Part shown: positions 7,418-35,092 of the stretch, piece by piece
How positions within the stretch are numbered: the first letter of the stretch is position 1
Layout: every line of letters starts with the position of its first letter
Source of the DNA: Acidobacteriota bacterium
GTDB taxonomy: Bacteria; Acidobacteriota; Thermoanaerobaculia; Gp7-AA8
Length of the DNA: 37,010 nt
Reading direction: 5' to 3'
Assembly (NCBI GenBank): GCA_019242175.1
Contig: JAFAVZ010000485.1
Span: 1-37,010, forward strand
Program-made: the position numbers and the translations under genes
The notes under the pieces: model-generated
The model's input: only the letters and a program-made list of their open reading frames with translations
What the model was told of the DNA's origin: nothing
Databases searched by the model: none

Positions 7418-8560
7418 ATGCGCCGACTGCTGCCCTTTCTTCTCGCCGCCCTGACCGCGCCGGCCGCTTTCGCCGCGCCGCTCGTCACGCAAGCGGTCGT
7501 CTCCCACACGTACGCACCGCCGCCGGGCGTGTTCGCCGCGACGGCGAAGGCGGTCTCGCTGGTGCGGACGGACGCGGGCGTCGTCGGCTGTTGGGCGAAC
7601 GCGCCGCAGATCCTCTGCGCGACGCTCGCGCCGGCGGGCGGCTTCGACACGCCGGTCGTGCTGCCGTCGTACACATCGGGCGTCGCCGGCTCCGTTCCGG
7701 CGGTCGCGTGGAACGGGCGGGAGCTGCTCGTCGCGTTCGAAGAAGGGGAGAACATCGCGCTCGTGCGGCTCGATCGTTCCCTGCGCGTGCTCGCGCCGCC
7801 GAAGCCGCTCGAGTTCCGCGCGTCGGCCGGATCCGCGCCCGCGCTTTCGTGGAACCGGAACGAATGGCTGCTGACGTACCGGAACTACGAGGCGTACATC
7901 GCGGCGACCGGCGCGGCCATGTACGCGGAGTCCGATCCGTGGCCGGTCGTCGACAGCGGCCTGTCCGGCGACGAGGTCGTCGTCATCCACAGCCCCGGCA
8001 CACGCACCGTTGCGGGCCCGCCGTCTTGCCACTACATCATGTACGGCTTCGGCTGCTGCACGATCTGCAATCCGACGACAGTGCAGGAGCCGGAGTGGCA
8101 CGCCACCTCCTCGGTCGTGGGCCCGGTGCCGCTGCCGTTGGATCGTTACACCGACGCCCGCAGCGCCGCGCTCGCCCAACGCGGCAACGGCGCGCTCCTC
8201 GTGTGGCCGCAGATCGAGTTCGCCACGAGCGCCCTGCTCACCGCATCGCTCGACGGCAACCGTCTCGGCGCCACGCAGCGCATCGGCGTGACGGCGAACG
8301 GCGTCCTGCCACGCATCGCCGCGACCCCGACGAACGGCCTCGTGGTCTGGGAAGAAGCGGGCGACATCCGCGGCGTGTTGGTCGACGCCGACGGCAAGGC
8401 AGACGGCGATCCGTTCGTCATCGCCGCCACCGCACCGGTCGAAGCGCATCCGTCGGTGATCGCGATGAACGAGAACGAGTACGTCGTCGCGTACGAGATC
8501 GAAGGCAAGCTCGCGACGCGGTTCGTGATCCTGCAGCAGTCGAAACGCCGCAGCCGTTAG
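7418..8560 (+). CDS. Hypothetical secreted protein with an internal Cys cluster
   Basis: MRRLLPFLLAALTAPAAFAAPLVTQAVVSHTYAPPPG...; signal peptide; SCHYIMYGFGCCTICNPT segment. Confidence 0.7.
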   Translation: MRRLLPFLLAALTAPAAFAAPLVTQAVVSHTYAPPPGVFAATAKAVSLVRTDAGVVGCWANAPQILCATLAPAGGFDTPVVLPSYTSGVAGSVPAVAWNGRELLVAFEEGENIALVRLDRSLRVLAPPKPLEFRASAGSAPALSWNRNEWLLTYRNYEAYIAATGAAMYAESDPWPVVDSGLSGDEVVVIHSPGTRTVAGPPSCHYIMYGFGCCTICNPTTVQEPEWHATSSVVGPVPLPLDRYTDARSAALAQRGNGALLVWPQIEFATSALLTASLDGNRLGATQRIGVTANGVLPRIAATPTNGLVVWEEAGDIRGVLVDADGKADGDPFVIAATAPVEAHPSVIAMNENEYVVAYEIEGKLATRFVILQQSKRRSR

Positions 8561-8952
8561 CTTCGGCGCTCGCGCAGCTCGCGCGTCACTCTGCGGTGGC
8601 AGGGGATGCAGAGCGTCCGGATGTTCTCCAGGTTCGAGTCGCCGCCTTCCACCACGGCGAGGATGTGATCCGCTTCCCACCAGGTCTTGCGCTTGCGCGT
8701 GATTGCGCCGGCGGCGAGCAGCGTGCGCAGCTCGCGCATGCGGTCGGCGAACGGAAGGCGCATCACGCGGCGGCGCGCTTTCACGGTGTCCGTCCCGCAG
8801 AGCGCGCACACGCCGTTGTCGCGGGCGAGCACGCACTCGCGGAGGTAGCTCGTGCTGGAGCGGAGGCGCCACTCGTGGACGCACGCATCGGAGCAGAACG
8901 TCCGGCGACGGCCGCTCACCTCCGTCTTGCACCAGCGGCAAAGGGCGCGCAT
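8557..8952 (-). CDS. HNH endonuclease family protein
   Basis: MRALCRWCKTEVSGRRRTFCSDACVHEWRLRSS...CALCGTD...WWEADHILAVVEGGDSNLENIRTLCIPCHRRVTRELR; DHI...N..LC..CH HNH signature. Confidence 0.9.
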   Translation of the reverse strand: MRALCRWCKTEVSGRRRTFCSDACVHEWRLRSSTSYLRECVLARDNGVCALCGTDTVKARRRVMRLPFADRMRELRTLLAAGAITRKRKTWWEADHILAVVEGGDSNLENIRTLCIPCHRRVTRELRERRS

Positions 8953-8993
8953 GAGGGGAAAAGGGCCGGCGGGTTGCGCCGGCCCCGGAGAGT

Positions 8994-9542
8994 TTAGAAC
9001 GCGAGCGCCGGCTCGAGCGCGGGAAGCTCGAGCGAGACGGCAGCGGCGTTGACCGTGGCCGCGATGCGCACGGCATCGTGAACCTGATCTTCGCTGAGGC
9101 CGCCGGCGAGGACGACCTGCTCGTGAGAACGAACGCAGGTCTCGCAGCCGTTCACCGCGCTCACCGCGAGGCAGAACAGCTCGAAGTCGACCTTCGACGC
9201 CGCCGGCTTCGCGATGCGCTGCATGCGCAGGCGGGCCGGCTTCTCGTTGTAGGACGGCTTCCCGATCTGGTGCCGGAAGCGGTAGTAGACGTTGTTCATC
9301 GCCATGAGCGCCGCCGCGGCCAGGGCGTCTTCGATCACCGCGTCGCTCACGTCCGCCATGCGGGCGTCGGCGATCAACGCGTCTCGAAGGGCCTTGTGCC
9401 GGGCAACGGTCGCCGTGGCGATCGCCGTTCCCCAGCGCTGCGCCGGAGTCAGCGACTCCGTCTGCAGCACCGACTGCAGGTTCAGCTTGATGTCGCGCGC
9501 GCTGTCAGGCATCGAGGCGCGCAGGATTTCGACCGAGCTCAT
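8994..9542 (-). CDS. ahpD: Alkyl hydroperoxide reductase AhpD / carboxymuconolactone decarboxylase family
   Basis: MSSVEILRASMPDSARDIKLNLQSVL...; CETCVRSHE catalytic CxxC-SH motif; start overlaps the ahpC stop (TAATG). Confidence 0.92.
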   Translation of the reverse strand: MSSVEILRASMPDSARDIKLNLQSVLQTESLTPAQRWGTAIATATVARHKALRDALIADARMADVSDAVIEDALAAAALMAMNNVYYRFRHQIGKPSYNEKPARLRMQRIAKPAASKVDFELFCLAVSAVNGCETCVRSHEQVVLAGGLSEDQVHDAVRIAATVNAAAVSLELPALEPALAF

Positions 9543-10078
9543 TACGCCACCTTGATCGTGTCCTGCCCCTTCTGCCAGTTGCAGGGGCAGAGCTCGTCCG
9601 TCTGGAGAGCGTCGAGCGAGCGGAGCACTTCGTTCACATTGCGGCCGACCGAGAGGTCATTGACGCTGACGTAGCGAATGACGCCGTCCGGATCGACGAT
9701 GTAGGTCGCGCGGAGCGCCACGCCGTCCTTCGGGTGCAGAATGCCGAGGTCCTGGGCGAACGAGGGCGAGATGTGCACGAGCGGCGTCGGCAGGTCGGCC
9801 AGATCCGCATGCGCATTGCGCCAGGCGAGGTGCGAAAACTCGTTGTCCGTCGAGCCGCCGATCACGACTGCGTCGCGATCTTCGAAATCCGCCGTTCTCT
9901 TACCGAACTCGACCATTTCGGTCGGGCAGACGAACGTGAAGTCTTTCGGATACGAATAGAAGACGATCCACTTGCCGGCGTACGTATCGTTCGTGACTTC
10001 CTGGAATTCCTTCCCCTTCTCGCGGCTGACGTTCGCGTTCAGGCGGAACTGGGGAAACGTATCTCCAACTGTGAGCAT
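9542..10078 (-). CDS. ahpC: Peroxiredoxin AhpC
   Basis: MLTVGDTFPQFRLNANVS...FYSYPKDFTFVCPTEMVEFG...DELCPCNWQKGQDTIKVA; peroxidatic FVCPTE and resolving CPCNW motifs. Confidence 0.95.
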   Translation of the reverse strand: MLTVGDTFPQFRLNANVSREKGKEFQEVTNDTYAGKWIVFYSYPKDFTFVCPTEMVEFGKRTADFEDRDAVVIGGSTDNEFSHLAWRNAHADLADLPTPLVHISPSFAQDLGILHPKDGVALRATYIVDPDGVIRYVSVNDLSVGRNVNEVLRSLDALQTDELCPCNWQKGQDTIKVA

Positions 10079-10119
10079 TTGAAAAACGACTCCTTCAATG
10101 ATGGTGTGGGATTTTTGCG

Positions 10120-10533
10120 TCAGTCGCGGATTGCGGAGGGCTTCCGGACGCCGCGCATGACGACCTGGTAGTCCTGAATGTCGTAATCGCGCAAATGGTC
10201 GAGGCTGCCGACCTGCACGAGCTCCCACGGCACGTCGTGAATCTGCCCGGTCTCTTCGTCGATGAAGTGATGGTGCGTCTCCATCTTCGGGTCGAACACC
10301 ACGCTGTCCTCGCGGAGGCGCAGCGCGCGCAGAAGTCCCTTTTCCACGAAGAGGTTGAGGGTGTTGTAGACGGTGGCGCGGGAGATGTACGGGAAGCTGC
10401 GTTTCACTTCCCGGAACACGCGATCGGCCGACGGATGCTCCTCGGTGCAGAAGACGTACTGCGCCACGGCGACCCTTTGGGCCGAGGGCTGGATGCCTTT
10501 GTCGCGGAGGATGCTGTCGAAGTCGCGTTCCAT
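10120..10533 (-). CDS. perR: Fur/PerR family transcriptional regulator
   Basis: MERDFDSILRDKGIQPSAQRVAVAQYVFCTEEHPSADRVFREVKRSFPYISRATVYNTLNLFVEKGLL...HHHFIDEETGQIHDV; Fur-fold winged helix; upstream of ahpC-ahpD on the same strand. Confidence 0.85.
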   Translation of the reverse strand: MERDFDSILRDKGIQPSAQRVAVAQYVFCTEEHPSADRVFREVKRSFPYISRATVYNTLNLFVEKGLLRALRLREDSVVFDPKMETHHHFIDEETGQIHDVPWELVQVGSLDHLRDYDIQDYQVVMRGVRKPSAIRD

Positions 10534-10537
10534 GGGT

Positions 10538-10552
10538 TTAGACGATTTCTAA
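10538..10552 (-). promoter_or_regulatory. Candidate PerR box (7-1-7 inverted repeat)
   Basis: TTAGACG-A-TTTCTAA; 5 of 7 positions symmetric, resembling TTATAAT-N-ATTATAA; 5 bp upstream of the perR start codon. Confidence 0.4.
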
Positions 10553-10914
10553 CTTGCGACGCGCTCAAATACGCGGGACGGGTCAGATATTTCACCGCCT
10601 TCAAATTGCTTTTTTCGATGGGTAAGGAGATGTATAAGGATGCCGTGAGCGAGAAAGAGCACAGTTTCGGAACCCGGCGCCCCCTTTTCCCCACAAAAGT
10701 TCCCTTTCGTTGTCGATTTCTGGTGAAGCGTCCGTCTATCCCAGCGAAGGGGAGGTGTGTTTCGTGTGACAAATCCAGGTTTCGTATGGGTGAACTCCTC
10801 CTCTCCTGCTAGACTGCGCGACATCTCTCGACAATTCAGCAACTGGGTCCAGAAGACGTCTTCTTAGAAAAGTCACGTTTGGTTTCCCATCGTGTTCCCG
10901 TTCAGGCGAAGGCT

Positions 10915-11787
10915 ATGGACGCTGAAGAACTATTTCTCCAGAACATGGATGCGATCGAGCGCATCACGACCTATGTATCCCGCATGGGTCACCTCGAACC
11001 GGCGGAAGCCGAAGACTTTGCGTCGTTCGTGAAGCTCGAGTTGATCGAGAACAACTACGAGGTCATCCGCAAGTTCGAGGGGCGGAGCAGCTTCACCACC
11101 TACCTCAATACCGTCATCAACCACTTCTTCTATCAATACCGGGTGAAGATGTGGGGCAAGTGGCGCCCTTCGGCCGAGGCGAAACGGCTGGGGGAGAAGG
11201 CGATCACGCTGGAGCGCCTCCTCACCCGAGACGGCTACTCGCTCGACGAGGCCGTGCAGGTGCTCACCACCGGCTCGCCGGCCGGCTTCACAGAGCTGGA
11301 GATCGAAGGGCTGTATCGCCGCCTGCCGATCCGCATGCCTCGGCCGGTGCTCGTCTCCCAGGCGTCGCCGCCCGACACGGGCACGACGGAGAATGACGCC
11401 GATGAACGGCTGATGAGCCGCGACCGGCAGGAGACGGGGCGGGCGGCGGCGCGGGTGATCGACGCCGCCATGGGCGCCTTCTCTCTCGAAGACCAGCTCA
11501 TCCTGCAGCTGCGCTTCTGGCACTCCTGGAAGGTGCCGCACATCGCCGATCATCTGAACATCCCGGCGAAGAAGGCCTACAAACGGATCGACAAGCTCCT
11601 GGCCTCGCTGCGCTCCAAGCTCGAGCGCGCGGGGGTGAACGGGAACGACATCGGGGAAGTCCTGGCCCACGGAGACGGCGAGATTCATGTGGCACGTCTT
11701 CATCAGCAGGGGGGAGAATCGCCTACAGGTCCCTCTAACCGTATTGACGGGGGACGCTCGGGCGGCGCGAGCCGGCTGTCGGGTTAG
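10915..11787 (+). CDS. RNA polymerase sigma-70 family factor
   Basis: Region 2-like MDAIERITTYVSRMGHLEPAEAEDFASFVKLELIENNYEVIRKFEGRSSFTTYLNTVINHFFYQYRVKMWGKWRPSAEA and region 4-like AFSLEDQLILQLRFWHSWKVPHIADHLNIPAKKAYKRIDKLLASLRSKLE. Confidence 0.88.
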   Translation: MDAEELFLQNMDAIERITTYVSRMGHLEPAEAEDFASFVKLELIENNYEVIRKFEGRSSFTTYLNTVINHFFYQYRVKMWGKWRPSAEAKRLGEKAITLERLLTRDGYSLDEAVQVLTTGSPAGFTELEIEGLYRRLPIRMPRPVLVSQASPPDTGTTENDADERLMSRDRQETGRAAARVIDAAMGAFSLEDQLILQLRFWHSWKVPHIADHLNIPAKKAYKRIDKLLASLRSKLERAGVNGNDIGEVLAHGDGEIHVARLHQQGGESPTGPSNRIDGGRSGGASRLSG

Positions 11788-11794
11788 GAGACCG

Positions 11795-14700
11795 ATGGAG
11801 CACTCGGGATTTCCGTCTCACGAAACGCTAGCAGCGTTCATCGACGGGCGTCTGGACTCGCAGACGCGCAAACGGGTCATGGAGCACATGGCGACTTGCG
11901 CCGAATGCCGATCCACGTTCGTCGGCGCCGTCGAGCTGAGAGGGCTCGACACGGCCGCCTTTCCTCGGCGTTACCGTCTTCGATGGGCGTCGGCGGCAGC
12001 GGCAGCACTTCTCATCGGCGCGGTCCTCGCCGGAGGATTCCTGGTCCGCACTCGCAACCGGGAGCCCCTCCCGCCGGGTGTCGACGCACTGATCGCCGCG
12101 GCCGGCGACTTTCCGAACCGCCCGGCGGACGGCCGCATCACCGGCTTTCCCTACCGCCCGAAGCCGCGCGTCCTGCGCAGCGCACCCGCGACCGAGGATT
12201 CGTCGAAGTGGAAGACGATCAGCGCGGGGAACAAGATCTTCGAACGCGCCGATCGGAACCCCTCGGCTGAAAACCTCCACGCCTACGGCATCTCCTTCTA
12301 CGCCGTCGGCAGCGCGGAGATGGCCGTGGCGCAGCTCGAGGCCGCGGTGCGGAAGGAGACGGGCCACGAAGACGTGAAGCAGGCGATCGGCGCCTCGCAC
12401 GACGCGCAGCTCCTCTCCGACCTCAGCGCGGCTTACCTCGCCGTCGCCGGACAGAAGGAACAGAACCATCAATGGATGCTCTCCGCGACGAGCGCCGCCG
12501 ACAGGGCGTGGGAGCTCGCCCCCGATTCGCCCGAGGTGCTGTGGAATCGGGCGGCGAGCTACGAGGCCTGGCCGTTGCGGCAGAAGGCGCGCGACGCCTG
12601 GAACGACTATCTCCGCGTCGACTCCACCAGCCGTTGGGCGGCGGAGGCGAGGACGCGTCGCGACGAGCTCGAGCGGCCGCCGCAGTCGGAGTTGTGGGAG
12701 CGCGAGCGCCAGACGCTGGACGAGAAGAGGGCGGATGCGCCGGCGCAGGCGAAGCGGCTGGCGGTGATCTATCCGCAGGAGGCGCGCGAGTACGCGCAGG
12801 GAACGCTGCTGCCGTGCTGGGGGGAGGAAGCGTTGGCCGGCGACGAAGACGCGGCGGCCCGAACGCTGGCCATGGTCCGCGCCATCGGCGAGGCGTCGGC
12901 GGCGAAGGGCGACACGCTGCTCGTCCGCACCGTCGCGCACATCGAGTCCAAACGTGCTCGCCGCGCGCTCGCCGAGGGCTTCGTCGCGTGGCATGAAGGG
13001 CAGAAGGCGTACGACGACTCGAAGATGGCCGAGGCGGAGAGCCATCTGCAGATTGCCGTCGCGAACCTGACCGCGGCCGGCTCGCCGTTCGCGGGCGCGG
13101 TGCGTCGCGACTACGCCAGCGCCGCGTTCAATCAGAACGACTACGAGACCGTGCTCGTCCGCCTCGCAGCGATCCCGCAGGACGATCTCGAGGCGTCGCC
13201 GTGGCTGCGCGGCCGGGTGCTCTGGCTGAGCGCGCTCGCGGAGACGGTGCTCGGTCGACAGAAGCTCGCGCTCGATCACTATCAGCAAGCGTTCGACGAT
13301 TTCCGCCAGCTCGGCGAAGTGGACAACCAGCTCGCCGTGCAGAACCTGATGGCGATCAACGACGACTACACCGCGGACACCACGCGGGCCTGGCAGCGGC
13401 GCTTCGACTCGTTCCGCAAGCTCCATCAGCTCGGGAGCTCGCGGCGCGCGCAATACGTCTTCACCGATGCCTCCCGCGCCGCGGCCCGCGAAGGGCAGGT
13501 CGGCGCCGCGCGCGTGTTCGCGGACGAGATGGTCCGCGTCGCGCGCATCAGCAAGTTGCCGGCGGCGATCAGCGACGCGTATCTCAATCGCGGCGTCGCG
13601 CAGTTCCTCTCCGGACGCATCGACGCGGCGCAGCGCGATCTGGAGCATGCCGAGCATTGGGCCGCGCGCATTCCGGACGAGGACATGCGCGCGCGCACGA
13701 TCGCGAACACGGAGCTCACCGCCTACAACTGGCGCAATGGGGAGTCGCCGGACGTCGCCATCGGCCGCCTCTCGAACGCCATCGAGTTCTTCGAGGAGAC
13801 GGAGAAGCGTTTCTATCTGCCGCGCCTCCATTTCCTGCGCGCCCGCGTCGCCTGCGGCGCCGGCCGCGCGCAAGCCTGCGAGGCGGACCTCAAGGCCGGG
13901 CTCTCCGAGGCTTCACAGGAGCTGAAGGGTCTGCGGGATCCGATTCTGTTCGGGACGTATCTGCAGACGGTGCGCGAGGCGACGGACGGTCTCGCATCGA
14001 TCCTCGTCCGCCGCGGCGACGCGCGCGCGTCCTTGCCGTACATCGATTGCAACCGTCTGCTCTTCGCGGCGTCGAATGCGAAGCCGGTCGCCTGCGCCAG
14101 CACCGACCAGGCCCTCACCGCATCAGTACAGAAGCGTCTCCCCGCGCACTCGGCGTTGCTCGAACTGGCGGTGATCGACGATCAGCTTTTGGCGTGGCTC
14201 ATCACCGCGGATGACGTCCGTTTCGAGCAGCGGAAGATGGGCCTGTTCCGCGGCGAACGGATGCTCGAGCCGTTTGCCGATGCGCTGCCGAATCTACAGT
14301 CGCTGGTGATCGTGAACGACCCGGCGTTCGCGGACGTCCCGCTTCCGTCGCTGCGCAATCCGGCGACGGGACGCTATCTCATCGAAGACCTCGACCTCAC
14401 TACGATTCCGAGCGCCGCCACGTTCGCCGCCTCCGTCGCGCCGGGCGTCGCGAACGGCACGGCGCTCGTCGTCTGCAACGCGGCCTACGATCAGGCCGGA
14501 CTCAAACCGCTGCGGTTCGCCGACGACGAGGCGCTCGCGACCGCGGCAGCGTATCGGCGTCACGAGATCCTGCGCGGCAAGGATGCGACGCGGCAACGGT
14601 TCCTCGAAGACGCCGGCGATGCGAGCGTGGTGCACTACGTCGGCCACTCGGTCTCGCAGGCCGACTCGCCGTTGCTCGCTGCGCTCGCGCTCGCGCCGGC

Positions 14701-15052
14701 GAGCGCGCAGGACTCCGGCCTGCTCACCGCGCGCGACATCGCCCGTGCGAAGTTCCCGCACACCTCCCTCGTCGTCCTCTCCGCGTGCAGCACCGCCGCC
14801 GCGGATCGACGGGAGGAGGCGGGCGTGACGAATCTGGCTCGCGCATTTCTCGCCGCCGGAGTTCCCGGAGTCATCGCCAGCACCACGCCGGTCGATGACG
14901 CCACGGCGCCCGAGATGTTTCGCCGTCTGCACGGCCTGCTCGCGCAGGGCGTCGCCCCTCCCAGGGCATTGCGGACGGTTCAGATCGAGATGATTCGCCG
15001 AGGCGCCCCACCGAATGCGTGGGCCGGTTTCCAATACCTCGGCAGTATCTAG
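11795..15052 (+). CDS. zf-HC2 anti-sigma-like domain + TM helix + TPR-like region + C-terminal CHAT (caspase-like) domain protein
   Basis: MEHSGFPSHETLAAFIDGRLDSQTRKRVMEHMATCAECRSTF (H-x3-C-x2-C); TM WASAAAAALLIGAVLAGGFLV; long helical repeat region; CHAT His VVHYVGHS and Cys VVLSACSTA. ATG 7 bp after the sigma stop codon. Confidence 0.9.
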   Translation: MEHSGFPSHETLAAFIDGRLDSQTRKRVMEHMATCAECRSTFVGAVELRGLDTAAFPRRYRLRWASAAAAALLIGAVLAGGFLVRTRNREPLPPGVDALIAAAGDFPNRPADGRITGFPYRPKPRVLRSAPATEDSSKWKTISAGNKIFERADRNPSAENLHAYGISFYAVGSAEMAVAQLEAAVRKETGHEDVKQAIGASHDAQLLSDLSAAYLAVAGQKEQNHQWMLSATSAADRAWELAPDSPEVLWNRAASYEAWPLRQKARDAWNDYLRVDSTSRWAAEARTRRDELERPPQSELWERERQTLDEKRADAPAQAKRLAVIYPQEAREYAQGTLLPCWGEEALAGDEDAAARTLAMVRAIGEASAAKGDTLLVRTVAHIESKRARRALAEGFVAWHEGQKAYDDSKMAEAESHLQIAVANLTAAGSPFAGAVRRDYASAAFNQNDYETVLVRLAAIPQDDLEASPWLRGRVLWLSALAETVLGRQKLALDHYQQAFDDFRQLGEVDNQLAVQNLMAINDDYTADTTRAWQRRFDSFRKLHQLGSSRRAQYVFTDASRAAAREGQVGAARVFADEMVRVARISKLPAAISDAYLNRGVAQFLSGRIDAAQRDLEHAEHWAARIPDEDMRARTIANTELTAYNWRNGESPDVAIGRLSNAIEFFEETEKRFYLPRLHFLRARVACGAGRAQACEADLKAGLSEASQELKGLRDPILFGTYLQTVREATDGLASILVRRGDARASLPYIDCNRLLFAASNAKPVACASTDQALTASVQKRLPAHSALLELAVIDDQLLAWLITADDVRFEQRKMGLFRGERMLEPFADALPNLQSLVIVNDPAFADVPLPSLRNPATGRYLIEDLDLTTIPSAATFAASVAPGVANGTALVVCNAAYDQAGLKPLRFADDEALATAAAYRRHEILRGKDATRQRFLEDAGDASVVHYVGHSVSQADSPLLAALALAPASAQDSGLLTARDIARAKFPHTSLVVLSACSTAAADRREEAGVTNLARAFLAAGVPGVIASTTPVDDATAPEMFRRLHGLLAQGVAPPRALRTVQIEMIRRGAPPNAWAGFQYLGSI

Positions 15053-15064
15053 GAGGCACAAACA

Positions 15065-16684
15065 ATGTCATCGCTTCCCACGTTGACGTTCAGCGGCATC
15101 GATCTCCTCACCATCGACAACAGTGCTCGCGCAGTGGTCGCTCTCCTCCCCGACGGCACCCGGCAACGCATCGCCCGCAACGTGGACGATGACGGCCGGC
15201 CGGTGATCATCCCTCCGCACCTCGCGTACGTGCGCTACGAGCTGGACGATCTCGATCCGGCGCGCGCGTCGGAGCAGCGGCAGCCGGATCTCGTGTTCCA
15301 GGCGCAGGGGAAGACCTTCGGCGTCTGCTTCCTCCGCCACGAGCGGGTGGAGGTGGAGGGGCCGTTCGAGTCGGACGACGTGACGTTCGAGAGCTCGCTC
15401 GTCGGGCCGTCGCCGCAGCCGACGTCGGCCGACCGGCTGACGTTCAACGAGTACGTGGTCGACTTCCTGGCCGCCTGCCCGGATCTCGATCCGGTCGACC
15501 GCCGGCTCGCCGATCCGACGACCGAGGAGTCGCAGCGGCTCAGCGGGTGGGTGCGCATGACGCGCGGCCATTTCGCGGCGAGCTACGTCGATCCGACCCA
15601 CATCTGGACGTTCGATCCGAACGCGCAACGCCAGCCGTTTTTCCAGCTCGCGCAGGAGGTGCCGGTGGCGTTCCGGATGCGCGAGAACAAGTTCTCGCTG
15701 CGCTTCTCGCCGCTGCTGCCGGCGGGCGATCCGGCGCCGAGCGCGTTGCATTTCGGGAAGATGGAAGGCGCGCGGCTGAACGTGCGCATCGGCAACGCGC
15801 CGCTCGACGCGATCCTCATGCAGGCCGAATGCATCGAGGAGAACGTCGACTATCACTTCGAGCTCTACTACGACCTCTATCCGCAGCGGCGGGACATGCC
15901 CCGGATTCCGCGCAAACGGATCGTGGGAAAGGAGCCGCACGCGTCGAATTGCCCGCTCGTGCGCGGTCAGTTCGGCGGCGGCGATCCTCCGGGATTGATC
16001 GCCGGCCAAACCGCGCGCGCCGCGCTCGGCAGCGGCTCGACGCCGATGATTGCCGCCACACCTTCTTTTGCCTCGCGCACGTTCGCCATCCACCTCGGCG
16101 TCGGCGGCGTCGACCCGCTCGCCGATCTCGCCGCGTGGCGCAACGTGACGGGGGGCTACGACCATCAGGTGATGCTGCCGAACCGCGCGGCGACGACCGG
16201 CGCGTTGCGCAAAGCGATCGATGATGCCGGCACGTGGCTGCGCGACGGCGGGCTTCTCTTCGTGACGTTCTCCGGTCACGCGGCCATCTATCCGCGGCTC
16301 TACGACCGGATGATCACCGCCGAGGAGCTGCGCGCGCTTTGGGCGAACTTCCAGGCCGGGGTGCGCATCGTGTTCCTCTCGGACAGCTGCCATTCCGGCG
16401 CCGCGCTGCCCCGCCGCGAAGTGCCCGCGGACGTGCTGCTGCTCGCCGCTTGCGACAGCAACGGCGTGGCTTACGAAGGCGCCGCCCGCGACGAGGCGTC
16501 GTTCTTCACGGCGATGATGAAACGCGCGATCGACGAACGCCGCGGCGCGACGCTACGGTCGCAGTTCGACCGCGCGTCTCTGCTCCTGCAGGAGACGATG
16601 CGCGGCCTGCCCGTGCGGCAGACGCCGAAGTGGAAAGTGGTGAGCGGGGACGAGATCGGCTTCGACCAACTGGTGATGTTCTAG
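15065..16684 (+). CDS. Caspase-like (peptidase C14/metacaspase) protein with uncharacterised N-terminal region
   Basis: C-terminal FAIHLGVGGVDPLADL...GGLLFVTFSGHAAIYPRLYDRMITAEEL...VRIVFLSDSCHSGAALP: His (SGHA) and Cys (DSCHSG) dyad. Starts 12 bp after the CHAT gene stop. Confidence 0.88.
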   Translation: MSSLPTLTFSGIDLLTIDNSARAVVALLPDGTRQRIARNVDDDGRPVIIPPHLAYVRYELDDLDPARASEQRQPDLVFQAQGKTFGVCFLRHERVEVEGPFESDDVTFESSLVGPSPQPTSADRLTFNEYVVDFLAACPDLDPVDRRLADPTTEESQRLSGWVRMTRGHFAASYVDPTHIWTFDPNAQRQPFFQLAQEVPVAFRMRENKFSLRFSPLLPAGDPAPSALHFGKMEGARLNVRIGNAPLDAILMQAECIEENVDYHFELYYDLYPQRRDMPRIPRKRIVGKEPHASNCPLVRGQFGGGDPPGLIAGQTARAALGSGSTPMIAATPSFASRTFAIHLGVGGVDPLADLAAWRNVTGGYDHQVMLPNRAATTGALRKAIDDAGTWLRDGGLLFVTFSGHAAIYPRLYDRMITAEELRALWANFQAGVRIVFLSDSCHSGAALPRREVPADVLLLAACDSNGVAYEGAARDEASFFTAMMKRAIDERRGATLRSQFDRASLLLQETMRGLPVRQTPKWKVVSGDEIGFDQLVMF

Positions 16685-16693
16685 GGAAAGAAA

Positions 16694-16759
16694 ACGTAGG
16701 GCCGGCTCTCCAGCCGGCCCAATGTCGATGCTGGGCCGGCTGGAGAGCCGGCCCTACGT
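16694..16759. repeat. Palindromic repeat, type A
   Basis: acgtagggccggctctccagccggccc-aatgtcgatgct-gggccggctggagagccggccctacgt; near-perfect inverted repeat. Confidence 0.95.
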
Positions 16760-16782
16760 TTCGATTCTTTTATCGCTGTTCC

Positions 16783-16812
16783 GGCCCGAACGGGTTCAAG
16801 CCCGCCTTACGT
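16783..16812. repeat. Degenerate half copy of a type B palindrome
   Basis: ggcccgaacgggttcaagcccgccttacg compared with ggcccggacgggctaaagcccgcccctacg. Confidence 0.55.
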
Positions 16813-16830
16813 TTCTTCTGGCAATGACGT

Positions 16831-17264
16831 ACGTAGGGGCCGGCTTCAGCCGGCCCGGACGGGCTAAAGCCCGCCCCTACGTTTCTCGTGATGTACTGGC
16901 ATCGACGTACGTGGGGACCGGCTTCAGCCGGTCCCGGGACGGGCTGAAGCCCGTCCCCAGGTTCCGTGATGTCTTGCAATGAGGTATGTAGGGGCCGGCT
17001 TGAGCCGGCCCGGACGGGCTAAAAGCCCGCCCCTACATTTTTCCGCCAGAACGTACGTGGGGACCGGCTTGAGCCGGTCCCGGGACGGGCTGAAGCCCGT
17101 CCCCACGTTTTCCGTGATGTCTTGCAATGAGGTACGTAGGGGCCGGCTTCAGCCGGCCCGGACGGGCTAAAGCCCGCCCCTACGTTTCTCGTGATGTACT
17201 GGCATCGACGTACTTCGGGACCGGCTTCAGCCGGTCCCGGGACGGGCTGAAGCCCGTCCCCAGG
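16831..17264. repeat. Alternating array of palindromes B-C-B-C-B-C (16831, 16909, 16986, 17055, 17134, 17212)
   Basis: Type B gtaggggccggcttcagccggcccggacgggctaaagcccgcccctac; type C gtggggaccggcttcagccggtcccgggacgggctgaagcccgtccccac; conserved linkers gtttctcgtgatgtactggcatcgacgtac and ccgtgatgtcttgcaatgagg. Confidence 0.95.
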
Positions 17265-17272
17265 TTTCACAC

Positions 17273-18262
17273 TCACCGTTGTTCGAGGCGGTTCACGTCT
17301 GGCAGCGGCGTCATTCCGGCCTGCGTCTTGCGCCGGTCCTTCGCGCGGTACAGGCGCTTGTCCGCCGCCGCGACCAGCGCGCCGACGTCGCGCGTGGCGT
17401 CGGTCGCGGTCGTGATGCCGATCGACGCCGTGGCGCGGAGCACGCCCTGCGTCGTCGTCCAGCGCATCGCGGCGACGCTCTCGTGCAGCCGGTTCGCGAT
17501 CCGCCACGCCTCTTCCTCGTCCGTGTCGGGGAGGAGGAGCACGAACTCGTCGCCGCCGTAGCGGGCGATGAGATCGCCGTAGCGCGTCTCGCGTTTCAAA
17601 CAGCCGGCGACGTCGGCCAACAGGCGGTCGCCCATCAGATGGCCGTGCGTGTCGTTGATCCGTTTGAAGTCGTCGAGGTCGAAGAGCACGACGCTCAGCT
17701 TCCGGCCGGCGCTGAGGATTTCCTCGGCCGCGCGGAACAGCGCGCGCCGGTTCGCGATCCCGGTCAGCTCGTCGGTGTAGGCGAGGCGTTCCAGCTCCTC
17801 GTTCTCCACGTGCAGCCGCCGTTCGAGGTCGAGCCGGCGCGCCGCGGAACGGAGCTTGGCCACGATCTCCGACTCCGGCATCGTCTTCGTCAGGAAATCG
17901 TCGCAGCCGCCGTTGAGCGCGCGCAGCTTCGTCTCGAAGCCGTCGTTCGCCGTCAGCATGATGCTGTAGATGCCCGCCTCTTCCTGCTGGATGCGTTGCA
18001 CCAGCTCGATGCCGTCCATGTGCGGCATCGCCAGGTCGACGAGCAGGATCTCGATCTCCCGATCGTTCCGCACTGCGTCGACGGCCGACATACCGTCATA
18101 GGCGACGGTGACGTCGAAGCCCGCCCGGTGGAGGATCATCGCCAGGTACTTCAGATACGCATGGTCGTCGTCGACGGCGAGGATGCGAACCTTCGGGCCT
18201 TGGTCGCTGCCATCGTCCGATCGTCTTCGGCTGGGTTTGTCAGGGATTTCATTGTCCGCCAT
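17273..18262 (-). CDS. REC-GGDEF response regulator / diguanylate cyclase
   Basis: VRILAVDDDHAYLKYLAMIL...EILLVDLAMPHMDG...MLTANDG; ARYGGDEFVLLLP intact active site; RYGD-LIARY-GGDEF gives an RxxD I-site five residues upstream. Confidence 0.95.
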   Translation of the reverse strand: MADNEIPDKPSRRRSDDGSDQGPKVRILAVDDDHAYLKYLAMILHRAGFDVTVAYDGMSAVDAVRNDREIEILLVDLAMPHMDGIELVQRIQQEEAGIYSIMLTANDGFETKLRALNGGCDDFLTKTMPESEIVAKLRSAARRLDLERRLHVENEELERLAYTDELTGIANRRALFRAAEEILSAGRKLSVVLFDLDDFKRINDTHGHLMGDRLLADVAGCLKRETRYGDLIARYGGDEFVLLLPDTDEEEAWRIANRLHESVAAMRWTTTQGVLRATASIGITTATDATRDVGALVAAADKRLYRAKDRRKTQAGMTPLPDVNRLEQR

Positions 18263-18339
18263 GTCCGCTCCGTCCCAGCAGCAATCGCAGTGCCGGAGCG
18301 AGCAGTGGACGTGATCACCATCACACGATTTCTATGGAC

Positions 18340-20909
18340 TTATTGCGATGGCACATAAGTCGGGTCCTGCGTGTCTCCATCAATGACCGATCCGTAGGCG
18401 GTAATGCGTCCGCTTCCGCTGATGACCTCGACGGAAGCGCGGGCGTTGTAAGTGTCGGTTCCCGGACCCAGCAGTTGGGAAAGGATGCTCGTGAACTGCA
18501 GGAAACCGTTCGCCGGCAGGTCCGTCTCGAGCACGGGTGACACTTTCGAGTCGGGGAGAGTGACGATGATTCGCACCCGCGCCGGATTGCCGCTGAGCTC
18601 GGCAAGGCCGAGGTTTGAACGGAAGCTGCGGGATTGCTCGAGCTGGAGCACCTGCAGCGCGCGGTCGCCCAGGCCGACGCCTTCCGATGGGGAGACGGCG
18701 GGGATGAATTGTCCGAACGTCCCATTGTTCGCCGCGATGCTGTAGGTCCGGCCGGTCGCGACGAGCGACGTGTTGCCGTCGGTCGTCATCACGATCGAGC
18801 CGCCGGACGCCGTCGTACCAAAGAGCGTCGGCAGCACGTTGTCGACCGCTTTCACCTGGCCGGCGGGGATCGTGATCGGCGTCGCCGTTTTCGCCCCGGC
18901 CGTGTTGCCTTGCGGGTAGTACGTCAGGTTCACGGTCGCGGACGTCGCGCCGCCGTTGAAGATGCGGATGTCGGAGTGGAAGTTCGCCGCGCCATTATTG
19001 AGGTCGGCCATGCCTGGAAGGACGTAACGCGACGCGCTCACCGTCGACGCCTGCACCGGCATCACCGCGAGCGGATCGGTCGTCAGGTTGTCGAGGACCG
19101 ACGCGTAGGCGGTGATCGCGCGGTGTCGGAGGTGACGGCGATCTCGATGCGGCCATCGTCCAGCGTCGGGATACCGTTCACGGCGAGGAACGAGTTGATC
19201 TGCCGATGCTCGCCGGGCTGCAGACTGAAATCGACGCTCTTCAGCAACGTGCCGAGGTCGTCGAAGACGCGGATCACGCCGCTGGCCGGGGAGCCGGAGC
19301 CTTCGACGATGCCGAGGTTCGTGCGGAACTTCGACGATTGGGCAATTTGCTGGAGGGAGAGGACGGGCGTGCCGCCGGCCGAGCCGCCCGGCAAGGGCAC
19401 GAGGCCGCCGGCGTTCGACGCGAACTTGCTGAACGGCACCGCGGCGATGAACTGTCCGAACGTGCCGGTCGGCGTGCTCGCGTAGGTGCGGCTGGAGGCG
19501 AACGTGAGCGGCGAGGAGTTGTTCAGCGGGCGGATCTCCAGCACGCCGAAACCGGAGTCGCTCGGCTGGCCGGTCGCGCCGAAGCCGAAGAAGTCTTTGA
19601 CGATGTCGTTGAGCGCGATCGTCTGGCCCGGCGCGACGTTCAGCTCCGTCTTCCGCCCGACCTTCGTGCCGTCGTTGCCCGACGGCGTGAACGTGATTGC
19701 GTAGCGGATGTCCGCCGCGCCGCCGTTCGTCAGGCGCACATCCGACTGGAACGGACCGCTCGCGCCCTGCACGTGCGTCACGACCGGGATGATGAGTGCG
19801 TTGCCCGGCGGGATCGACTTGCCGCTTGGCTCGACCGGCGTCACGCGGCTGATCGTGATCGGCGTCTTCGCCAGCGACGCGCCGTTCGCCGTGACGTTCA
19901 ACGTGCCGGTGTTCGCTCCCGCCGGGAGACCGACGGGATTCGCCGACACCGTCACCGTCGTGCCGCCGGGCGGAATCGTTCCGGAGCTGGGCGTCACGGT
20001 AAGGAACGGCTTGTCCGTCGACGCCGTGAACGCGACGTCGAGCGCGGTCTTCGCCTGCGGCGCATCGATGTGCACCGGGATGCTCAGAACGGCGGACGAC
20101 GTCTCGGGGATGACGACGTCGATGGGGCTCTTCGACGAATACGTCTCGAGCGCCTGCACGACGGTGCTCGCCGTCGCGGAGAACGTTGTGTTCGTCGAGC
20201 CGCCGCAACTCGTCGCCCGGACGCGGTAGTAGTAAGTGGTCGTCGAGCCGACGGCGTGCACGAAACGCGCGCTTCGCTCGGTCGTGGTCGTGGTCGTGGG
20301 ATTCGCGAAGTCGGGAGTCGTCGACTCCTGGATCTCGTACGTCGCATTCGGCTGGGAGACTTCGCTCCAGCTCACGAAGTAGCCGACGTTCGACGGCGAC
20401 GCCGGCGGCGCCGAGATCGTCGGCGTGCAAGTCGGCACCTCGGCATTCTGGAACGCATAGACGAACGCCAACTCGTCGCCGGTCTCGAGGTCGTAAACGC
20501 CGGTGAGGCCGATGAGCGGCAACGTCTGCGCCGCGCCCTGGGCGATGGTGACGTCGAAGTTGGAGAAGAATTGCGCGCCGGCCGGCAGCAGCGCCTCGCC
20601 CGCGCAGATGCCGAACGCCCCCGATTCGCCGCCGCTCGGAACGTCGCCGGTGCCGAGACAGAAGTCCAAACCGAGGGACGTTTGGAAGTTGTGGATCTGG
20701 ACTTGGGATGTGGGCGCGGAGGCGAACACGCCGGCGATGAACTCGCCGCCGCACGACATGTTCCCGGCATTGAGCGTCGTCGTCGAGCACTTCGCCGTTC
20801 CGTTGCCATCGAAGCCGCTGCAGGACATCGAGATCTGCAGATTGCACGCGGCGCGGGCGGTGACGGGAAGGAGCAGAGAAAGCAGCAGCAGGCGATAGAT
20901 GCGGGCCAT
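18340..20909 (-). pseudogene. Secreted FN3/BACON-like multidomain protein with an internal frameshift near 19114-19124
   Basis: Start MARIYRLLLLSLLLPVTARAACNLQISMSCSG; N-terminal frame ends ...EIAVTSDTARSPPTRRSSTT* at 19083, while the homologous sequence ITAYASVLDNLTTDPLAVMPVQASTVSASRYVLPG... continues in the next frame to 18340. Confidence 0.75.
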
Positions 20910-34922: not shown

Positions 34923-35092
34923 ACGAACGTGGGGGCGGGCTTCAGCCCGCCCCGGGACCGGCTGAAGCCGGTCCCCACGTTTCTCACTGCATCATTTACG
35001 GACGTTGAAGGAACGCTACTCGGGATGAACGAACGTGGGGGCGGGCTTCGGCCCGCCCCGGGACCGGCTGAAGCCGGTCCCCACGTTTCTCA
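34881..35092. repeat. Two tandem 106-bp units, each containing a gene-end fragment plus a type C palindrome (34927-34980 and 35033-35086)
   Basis: ctgcatcatttacggacg[g/t]tgaa[c/g]gaacgctact[t/c]gggatgaacgaacgtgggggcgggc... at 34881 and 34987; a third ctgcatc at 35093. Confidence 0.93.

Follow-up and report, generated by a model that had tools for sequence, protein, structure and literature searches.

In type III-E CASP systems, the protease Csx29 cuts Csx30, which inhibits CASP-sigma (PMC10028731). In EACC2-caspase systems, a constant domain precedes the caspase, and the surrounding genes often include an ECF sigma factor and a DUF1822 TPR protein (PMC8195603). EACC1-caspase systems are two-gene membrane systems in which EACC1 is a single transmembrane (TM) helix with short extensions (PMC7159879). 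The locus we describe here shares something with each of these and also with RseA, RsrA and other zinc or membrane anti-sigma factors. It lies in a 37,010-nucleotide stretch of DNA (the window) from an Acidobacteriota draft genome of 5.6 Mb (686 contigs, 86% complete), which holds 16 CHAT matches. Three genes are separated by 7 bp (sigma factor to gene 2) and 12 bp (gene 2 to gene 3). The initial annotation had picked out the same genes, coordinates and motifs, all of which were reproduced by our gene calls and domain searches. The features are as follows:

8994–10533, reverse strand: CMD (AhpD-like), AhpC and FUR-family genes, divergent from and beside the sigma gene (Pfam CMD, AhpC-TSA, FUR)
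10915–11787, forward strand: gene 1, ECF-type sigma factor, 290 aa
11795–15052, forward strand: gene 2, predicted transmembrane anti-sigma-type protein with a C-terminal TPR-CHAT protease, 1085 aa
11828–11911, forward strand: zf-HC2 zinc module, residues 12–39 of gene 2, predicted cytoplasmic (Pfam 29.6 bits, cut-off 22.2)
11990–12046, forward strand: single TM helix, residues 66–84 (KD hydropathy 2.18 over 19 residues)
12062–14257, forward strand: TPR-like helical region, predicted extracytoplasmic (weak TPR_1, TPR_11 and TPR_12 matches)
14258–15043, forward strand: CHAT peptidase domain, residues 822–1083 (Pfam CHAT, 153 bits)
14645–14647 and 14786–14788, forward strand: CHAT catalytic dyad, His951 and Cys998
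15065–16684, forward strand: gene 3, partner domain and C14 domain
15065–15964, forward strand: partner domain, residues 1–300 of gene 3, no Pfam match
16067–16681, forward strand: C14 caspase-like domain, residues 335–539 of gene 3
16277–16279 and 16388–16390, forward strand: C14 dyad, His405 (SGHA) and Cys442 (DSCHSG)

Of the systems described so far, the EACC2-caspase/ECF systems come nearest. Both they and our locus have a constant domain ahead of a caspase, with an ECF sigma factor and a TPR protein close by and effectors that vary. Here, however, a CHAT protease and an anti-sigma module are both part of the TPR protein (Pfam finds no DUF1822 in it), and the constant domain, set against EACC2 as that domain has been described, is mostly beta by prediction and as a rule stands apart from the protease, which may belong to any of five classes. 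Craspase (Csx29, Csx30 and CASP-sigma) offers a different likeness, a TPR-CHAT protease linked, via a sigma inhibitor, to the regulation of an ECF sigma factor. In our case a zf-HC2 membrane module in one polypeptide with CHAT is the putative inhibitor, the CHAT domain is predicted to be extracytoplasmic and the partner is unrelated to Csx30 by sequence or detectable fold. There is no Csx29-type NCBIfam match, and neither the CHAT protein nor the partner profile has a match among PDB sequences. With no Csx29- or Csx30-like match and no CRISPR-like repeats within 8500–20500 (the initial annotation had likewise seen no array), the locus does not belong to type III-E; the functional analogy of a CHAT protease acting with a sigma inhibitor stays a reasonable one. 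EACC1-caspase systems resemble it in joining a membrane-linked constant component to a caspase. Our partner lacks a TM helix, as does gene 3 as a whole, and the caspase scores 19.6 bits against the EACC1-caspase cut-off of 140, which places the locus outside that group. The RseA/RsrA-type anti-sigma factors share the position beside an ECF sigma factor and, in the membrane types, the zf-HC2 module before one TM helix. Their outer part is a small sensor domain, whereas here it would be a TPR-CHAT protease.

Gene 1 reads as an atypical ECF sigma factor with regions 2 and 4 only. It matches the NCBIfam sigma70-ECF superfamily at 47.7 bits (cut-off 42.9) over residues 4–236, Pfam regions 2 and 4 being individually weak, and the profile of its family (A2) matches the solved ECF sigma factors SigF, SigH, SigL and SigW (E down to 1.6e-5, mostly through region 4). 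Homologues in related genomes are 30–53% identical. Genes of a second, ordinary ECF sigma family lie in divergent orientation next to another CHAT-partner clade, in which most members have a C14 gene. Because this family is separate, CHAT-partner pairs probably became linked to sigma factors on more than one occasion.

Gene 2 has the layout of a putative zf-HC2 membrane anti-sigma factor: a zinc module before a TM helix, in a gene adjoining its sigma factor. The motif, H31-x3-C-x2-C, can be read directly from the sequence, and the module is weakly similar to RsrA and ChrR. The TPR-like region aligns with that of relatives, the TPRs being individually weak. As judged from its domain and His/Cys dyad the C-terminal part is a predicted CHAT peptidase, and of 61 CHAT domains covering both positions, 60 keep the dyad as H and C.

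How far the pair extends was surveyed in 22 genomes, which were searched with gene 2 and the sigma factor before genes were called around the matches. The sigma gene directly precedes a fused zf-HC2-TM-TPR-CHAT gene at 16 loci (the window, L012, L014, L015, L027, L095, L100, L103, L104, L105, L106, L111, L112, L114, L184 and L187). In many relatives, for example L096, L097, L108, L113, L109 and L102, the zf-HC2-TM-TPR part is instead a separate gene of about 290 aa beside the sigma gene. The named relatives are Acidobacteriota (Thermoanaerobaculia, Vicinamibacteria and Holophagae) and one Gemmatimonadaceae MAG. A fused form together with a separate one beside the same sigma family is the pattern of a sigma/anti-sigma pair, and the original reading of the sigma factor and zf-HC2 module as such a pair is thereby supported. 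The initial annotation had also expected all three genes to be conserved together. This holds for the sigma-CHAT pair; the C14 domain is unique to the window among 15 complete loci. One locus, next to the FUR/AhpC/CMD genes or before a PurF-like gene, can be compared in several states: sigma factor and HC2 only (L113 and L093); sigma factor, HC2, CHAT and partner as separate genes (L102, where the partner is weak by profile, E 5e-4, yet carries a CSNSRWP tail); and sigma factor, fused HC2-CHAT and partner (L027 and L100), to which the window form adds C14. At this locus, then, CHAT and partner are jointly present or jointly absent. Related parts also occur in other arrangements. L010 (2470–7020) is another operon of sigma factor, zf-HC2, a 280-aa protein and CHAT, in which the start of the 280-aa protein resembles the partner, though it is not matched by the partner profile. 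In L026 (1–2912), a C14 gene lies inside a sigma/anti-sigma operon that is divergent from a CHAT-partner pair.

Gene 3 had been annotated as a C14 protein. Its dyad is indeed intact, and the domain, at 20.8 bits just below the Pfam cut-off of 21.4, aligns through SGHA and DSCHSG with full C14 relatives; what had been overlooked is the separate conserved family that makes up residues 1–300. These residues match the partner family profile at 153.8 bits (E 3.2e-46, from a profile that contains the window's own row), and gene 3 by itself, used as a single query sequence, retrieves the G015 partner at E 2.7e-9. Gene 3 thus appears to be a fusion of an undescribed partner family with a C14 domain. 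In relatives the partner proteins are about 250–360 aa long and begin with an I-x-F-x-G-[IL] strand, and in most of them the C-terminus is a short tail in which a Cys is conserved (CSNxxYP or CPP; alignment A4). AlphaFold2 predicts a mostly beta structure, with a pTM of 0.78 for the window domain and of 0.93 (mean pLDDT 94) for the paralogue L011. Foldseek searches of the PDB with these two models gave no credible match; the best, at E 3.2e-3 and to beta-sandwich proteins only, were rejected on a Foldseek probability of at most 0.07 and a TM of about 0.1. A search of PDB sequences with the partner profile also gave no match. The predicted fold is therefore new only relative to solved structures. 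One partner member was searched against a plasmid collection, with no match.

The partner keeps close company with CHAT. It directly follows the CHAT domain in 15 of 15 complete sigma/HC2-CHAT loci (the 16 fused loci less L104, which a contig end interrupts), and only in the window is C14 attached to it, the partner genes of the other 14 being without one. Run against 396 Acidobacteriota genomes, the partner profile alone picked up 27 places, spread over 13 genomes, and 25 of these are beside a CHAT gene. One of the 25, G408:C78, has a subtilase gene between the two; the remaining two places are in G252 and, as an additional tandem partner copy, in G004. The source genome also has two solitary partner genes (L202, 10181–11152, and L203, 4464–5426) of about 320 aa with near-identical starts and no adjacent CHAT. 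Further afield, in the cultured Gemmatimonadota Gemmatirosa kalamazoonensis KBS708, which was found through CHAT alone, a partner follows a lipoprotein-type TPR-CHAT gene. That CHAT gene (L194, 7497–10672) is split over two reading frames, by a sequencing error or because the gene is broken.

Downstream of the partner, relatives often have a protease, which belongs to one of five unrelated classes: C14 (L011, L130, L131, L139, L140 and L143), S8 subtilases (L127, a second locus in L131, L154, L185 and L191, the partner assignment in L154 being weak at E 0.004), trypsin-like proteins (L132 and L134), papain-like C39_2/C70 (L184 and L190) and M36 (L100). Counting same-strand downstream genes within about 300 bp, or fusions, a protease is the first or second gene at 17 of 28 partner loci, a set selected in part through CHAT matches. 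A Fisher comparison of proteases near partner genes (13 of 39, compared with 6 of 658) suffers from bias, since the families had been picked after they were seen there. Five unrelated protease folds in one position would nevertheless be hard to explain otherwise than by exchange. On a tree of CHAT domains, protease classes and architectures are scattered over several lineages, with at least 8 and at least 15 changes, respectively. One firm clade consists of CHAT-partner operons with a divergently oriented ECF sigma gene, most of them with C14; supported branches are too few to date the fusion or the protease changes. At L101 (3363–8466) the partner precedes CHAT, and a class 3 lipase, a non-protease enzyme, occupies the effector position after CHAT. 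The CHAT-partner-protease arrangement is real, recurrent and apparently undescribed, our literature search, with most subscription journals outside it, having found no paper on it.

On which side of the membrane would these proteins work? Export signals of the CHAT proteins were read by eye and with simple hydropathy. Partner-linked CHAT proteins without zf-HC2 have an N-terminal TM helix or a lipoprotein signal, and lipobox-like motifs end the hydrophobic stretch in L026, L127, L129, L130, L131, L137, L140, L141, L158, L190, L192, L193 and L194. Because these related proteins carry such signals, TPR-CHAT most likely lies outside the cytoplasm. TPR-CHAT outside and zf-HC2 inside would fit the one TM helix of the fused proteins, where the positive-inside count is weakly N-in. 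An outside CHAT would have no direct access to a cytoplasmic caspase. The initial annotation had itself pointed out that a cytoplasmic zf-HC2 and a single TM would put TPR-CHAT outside, and the export signals answer that point. Its proposal that CHAT cleaves the caspase is, for the cytoplasm, not supported by a CHAT family that carries export signals and a gene 3 that has no signal peptide.

Our preferred reading, to which we give a probability of roughly 0.45, is of a transmembrane anti-sigma factor with an extracytoplasmic TPR-CHAT protease, and of a dedicated partner linking CHAT with a second protease that can be exchanged. Sequence comparison supplies the domains, the conserved pairings, the fusion, the protease exchange and the export signals of related CHAT proteins; that the sigma factor is bound, that CHAT is activated and that the stalk or the partner is cut are inferred, as are the kind of signal and the compartment in which gene 3 acts. 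The zf-HC2 N-terminus of gene 2 would keep the sigma factor against the membrane's inner face and would itself be joined by the one TM helix to the outer part, a TPR sensor with an active CHAT protease. On reading a signal the TPRs would activate CHAT, which would cleave its own stalk or a neighbor's. Intramembrane proteolysis would follow, the anti-sigma factor would be lost and the sigma factor freed. Cleavage followed by intramembrane proteolysis is the route taken by other membrane anti-sigma factors. The first domain of gene 3 would be CHAT's dedicated partner, probably its substrate or adaptor, recruiting a second, exchangeable protease in relatives and carrying a caspase-like one by fusion in the window. 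More tentatively, the whole may be an envelope relay, in which an exported TPR-CHAT initiator acts through a partner of new fold on an exchangeable executioner (caspase-like, subtilase, trypsin-like, papain-like or metalloprotease) and is wired to transcription by the anti-sigma factor fused to the initiator.

What weakens the preferred reading most is the conflict between an exported CHAT and a partner without a signal. The partner has a lipoprotein signal in L100 and signal peptides in L128 and L193, and none in the window or most other loci. The C14 and M36 proteins of relatives mostly have signals, and most stand-alone C14 proteins bear an export signal; the S8 and trypsin-like proteases do not. 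CHAT and partner may thus be in different compartments, because gene 3 and most partners have no signal peptide. Also counting against the reading are the weak charge bias around the TM helix of the fused proteins and the partner genes that have no CHAT beside them, two in this genome and one in G252. The same signal-less partners and proteases (several S8, trypsin-like and C39) would suit an account in which gene 3 is a mere member of the sigma regulon that stays in the cytoplasm, never meets CHAT and is adjacent through co-expression. We think this unlikely, as the partner follows CHAT also where the sigma family is absent, lipoprotein CHATs included, and the two come and go together at the PurF-adjacent locus.

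Similarly unlikely is a system for conflict or immunity along EACC2 lines, in which sigma factor, TPR protein and caspase-linked constant domain sense an invader and respond with proteolysis and transcription. EACC2-caspase neighborhoods often hold an ECF sigma factor and a TPR protein (PMC8195603), the effectors here are exchangeable and 16 CHAT matches in one genome amount to many paralogues. But the sole defense-system match is a 26-bit local match to BovA inside CHAT, the partner is predicted to be mostly beta where EACC2 is described as alpha+beta, the operon has no NTPase and the locus sits in a conserved chromosomal context.

That context raises a further alternative, redox or envelope stress, with the zinc module itself sensing oxidation and CHAT and gene 3 as accessory output. 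The divergent FUR/AhpC/CMD genes beside the sigma gene recur in other genera (L027, L100, L102 and L113), and they and the resemblance of the H-x3-C-x2-C module to RsrA and ChrR lend the idea some appeal. Paralogous loci have the same proteins without the peroxide genes, however, and the CHAT dyad is strongly conserved, so we are distinctly doubtful of it. The death or transcription switch proposed at the outset, a TPR-CHAT protein, cytoplasmic or self-cleaving, that sequesters the sigma factor and activates the caspase, could draw on two intact dyads in neighboring genes, on Csx29's cleavage of a sigma inhibitor in type III-E CRISPR (PMC10028731) and on a signal-less gene 3 that would be cytoplasmic, but it is very improbable given the lipoprotein signals or N-terminal TM helices of related CHAT proteins, the 14 other complete loci whose partner gene has no C14 and the export signals on most stand-alone C14 proteins of relatives.

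If the preferred reading is true, bacteria outside CRISPR control sigma factors from the envelope side through CHAT proteases, and Csx29/Csx30 would be one branch of a wider use of CHAT in sigma control. It would also mean modular chains of initiator, partner and effector proteases, comparable in layout to the caspase relays of animals. The partner family is a marker with which to find such systems, and it frames the question of whether the partner is a CHAT substrate.

Around the operon itself, an Rfam search of 10400–17400 gave no match, and scanning for sigma-70 promoters yielded nothing of use. The regions upstream of 20 sigma genes showed no common ECF promoter above shuffles, which leaves self-activation of the operon unsupported. 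Directly after the C14 gene (16807–17266) is a palindromic element of about 150 bp in three tandem copies. A 71-bp piece of it has 82 matches in the genome, with 34925–35086 elsewhere in the window among them; the element is a REP-like repeat.
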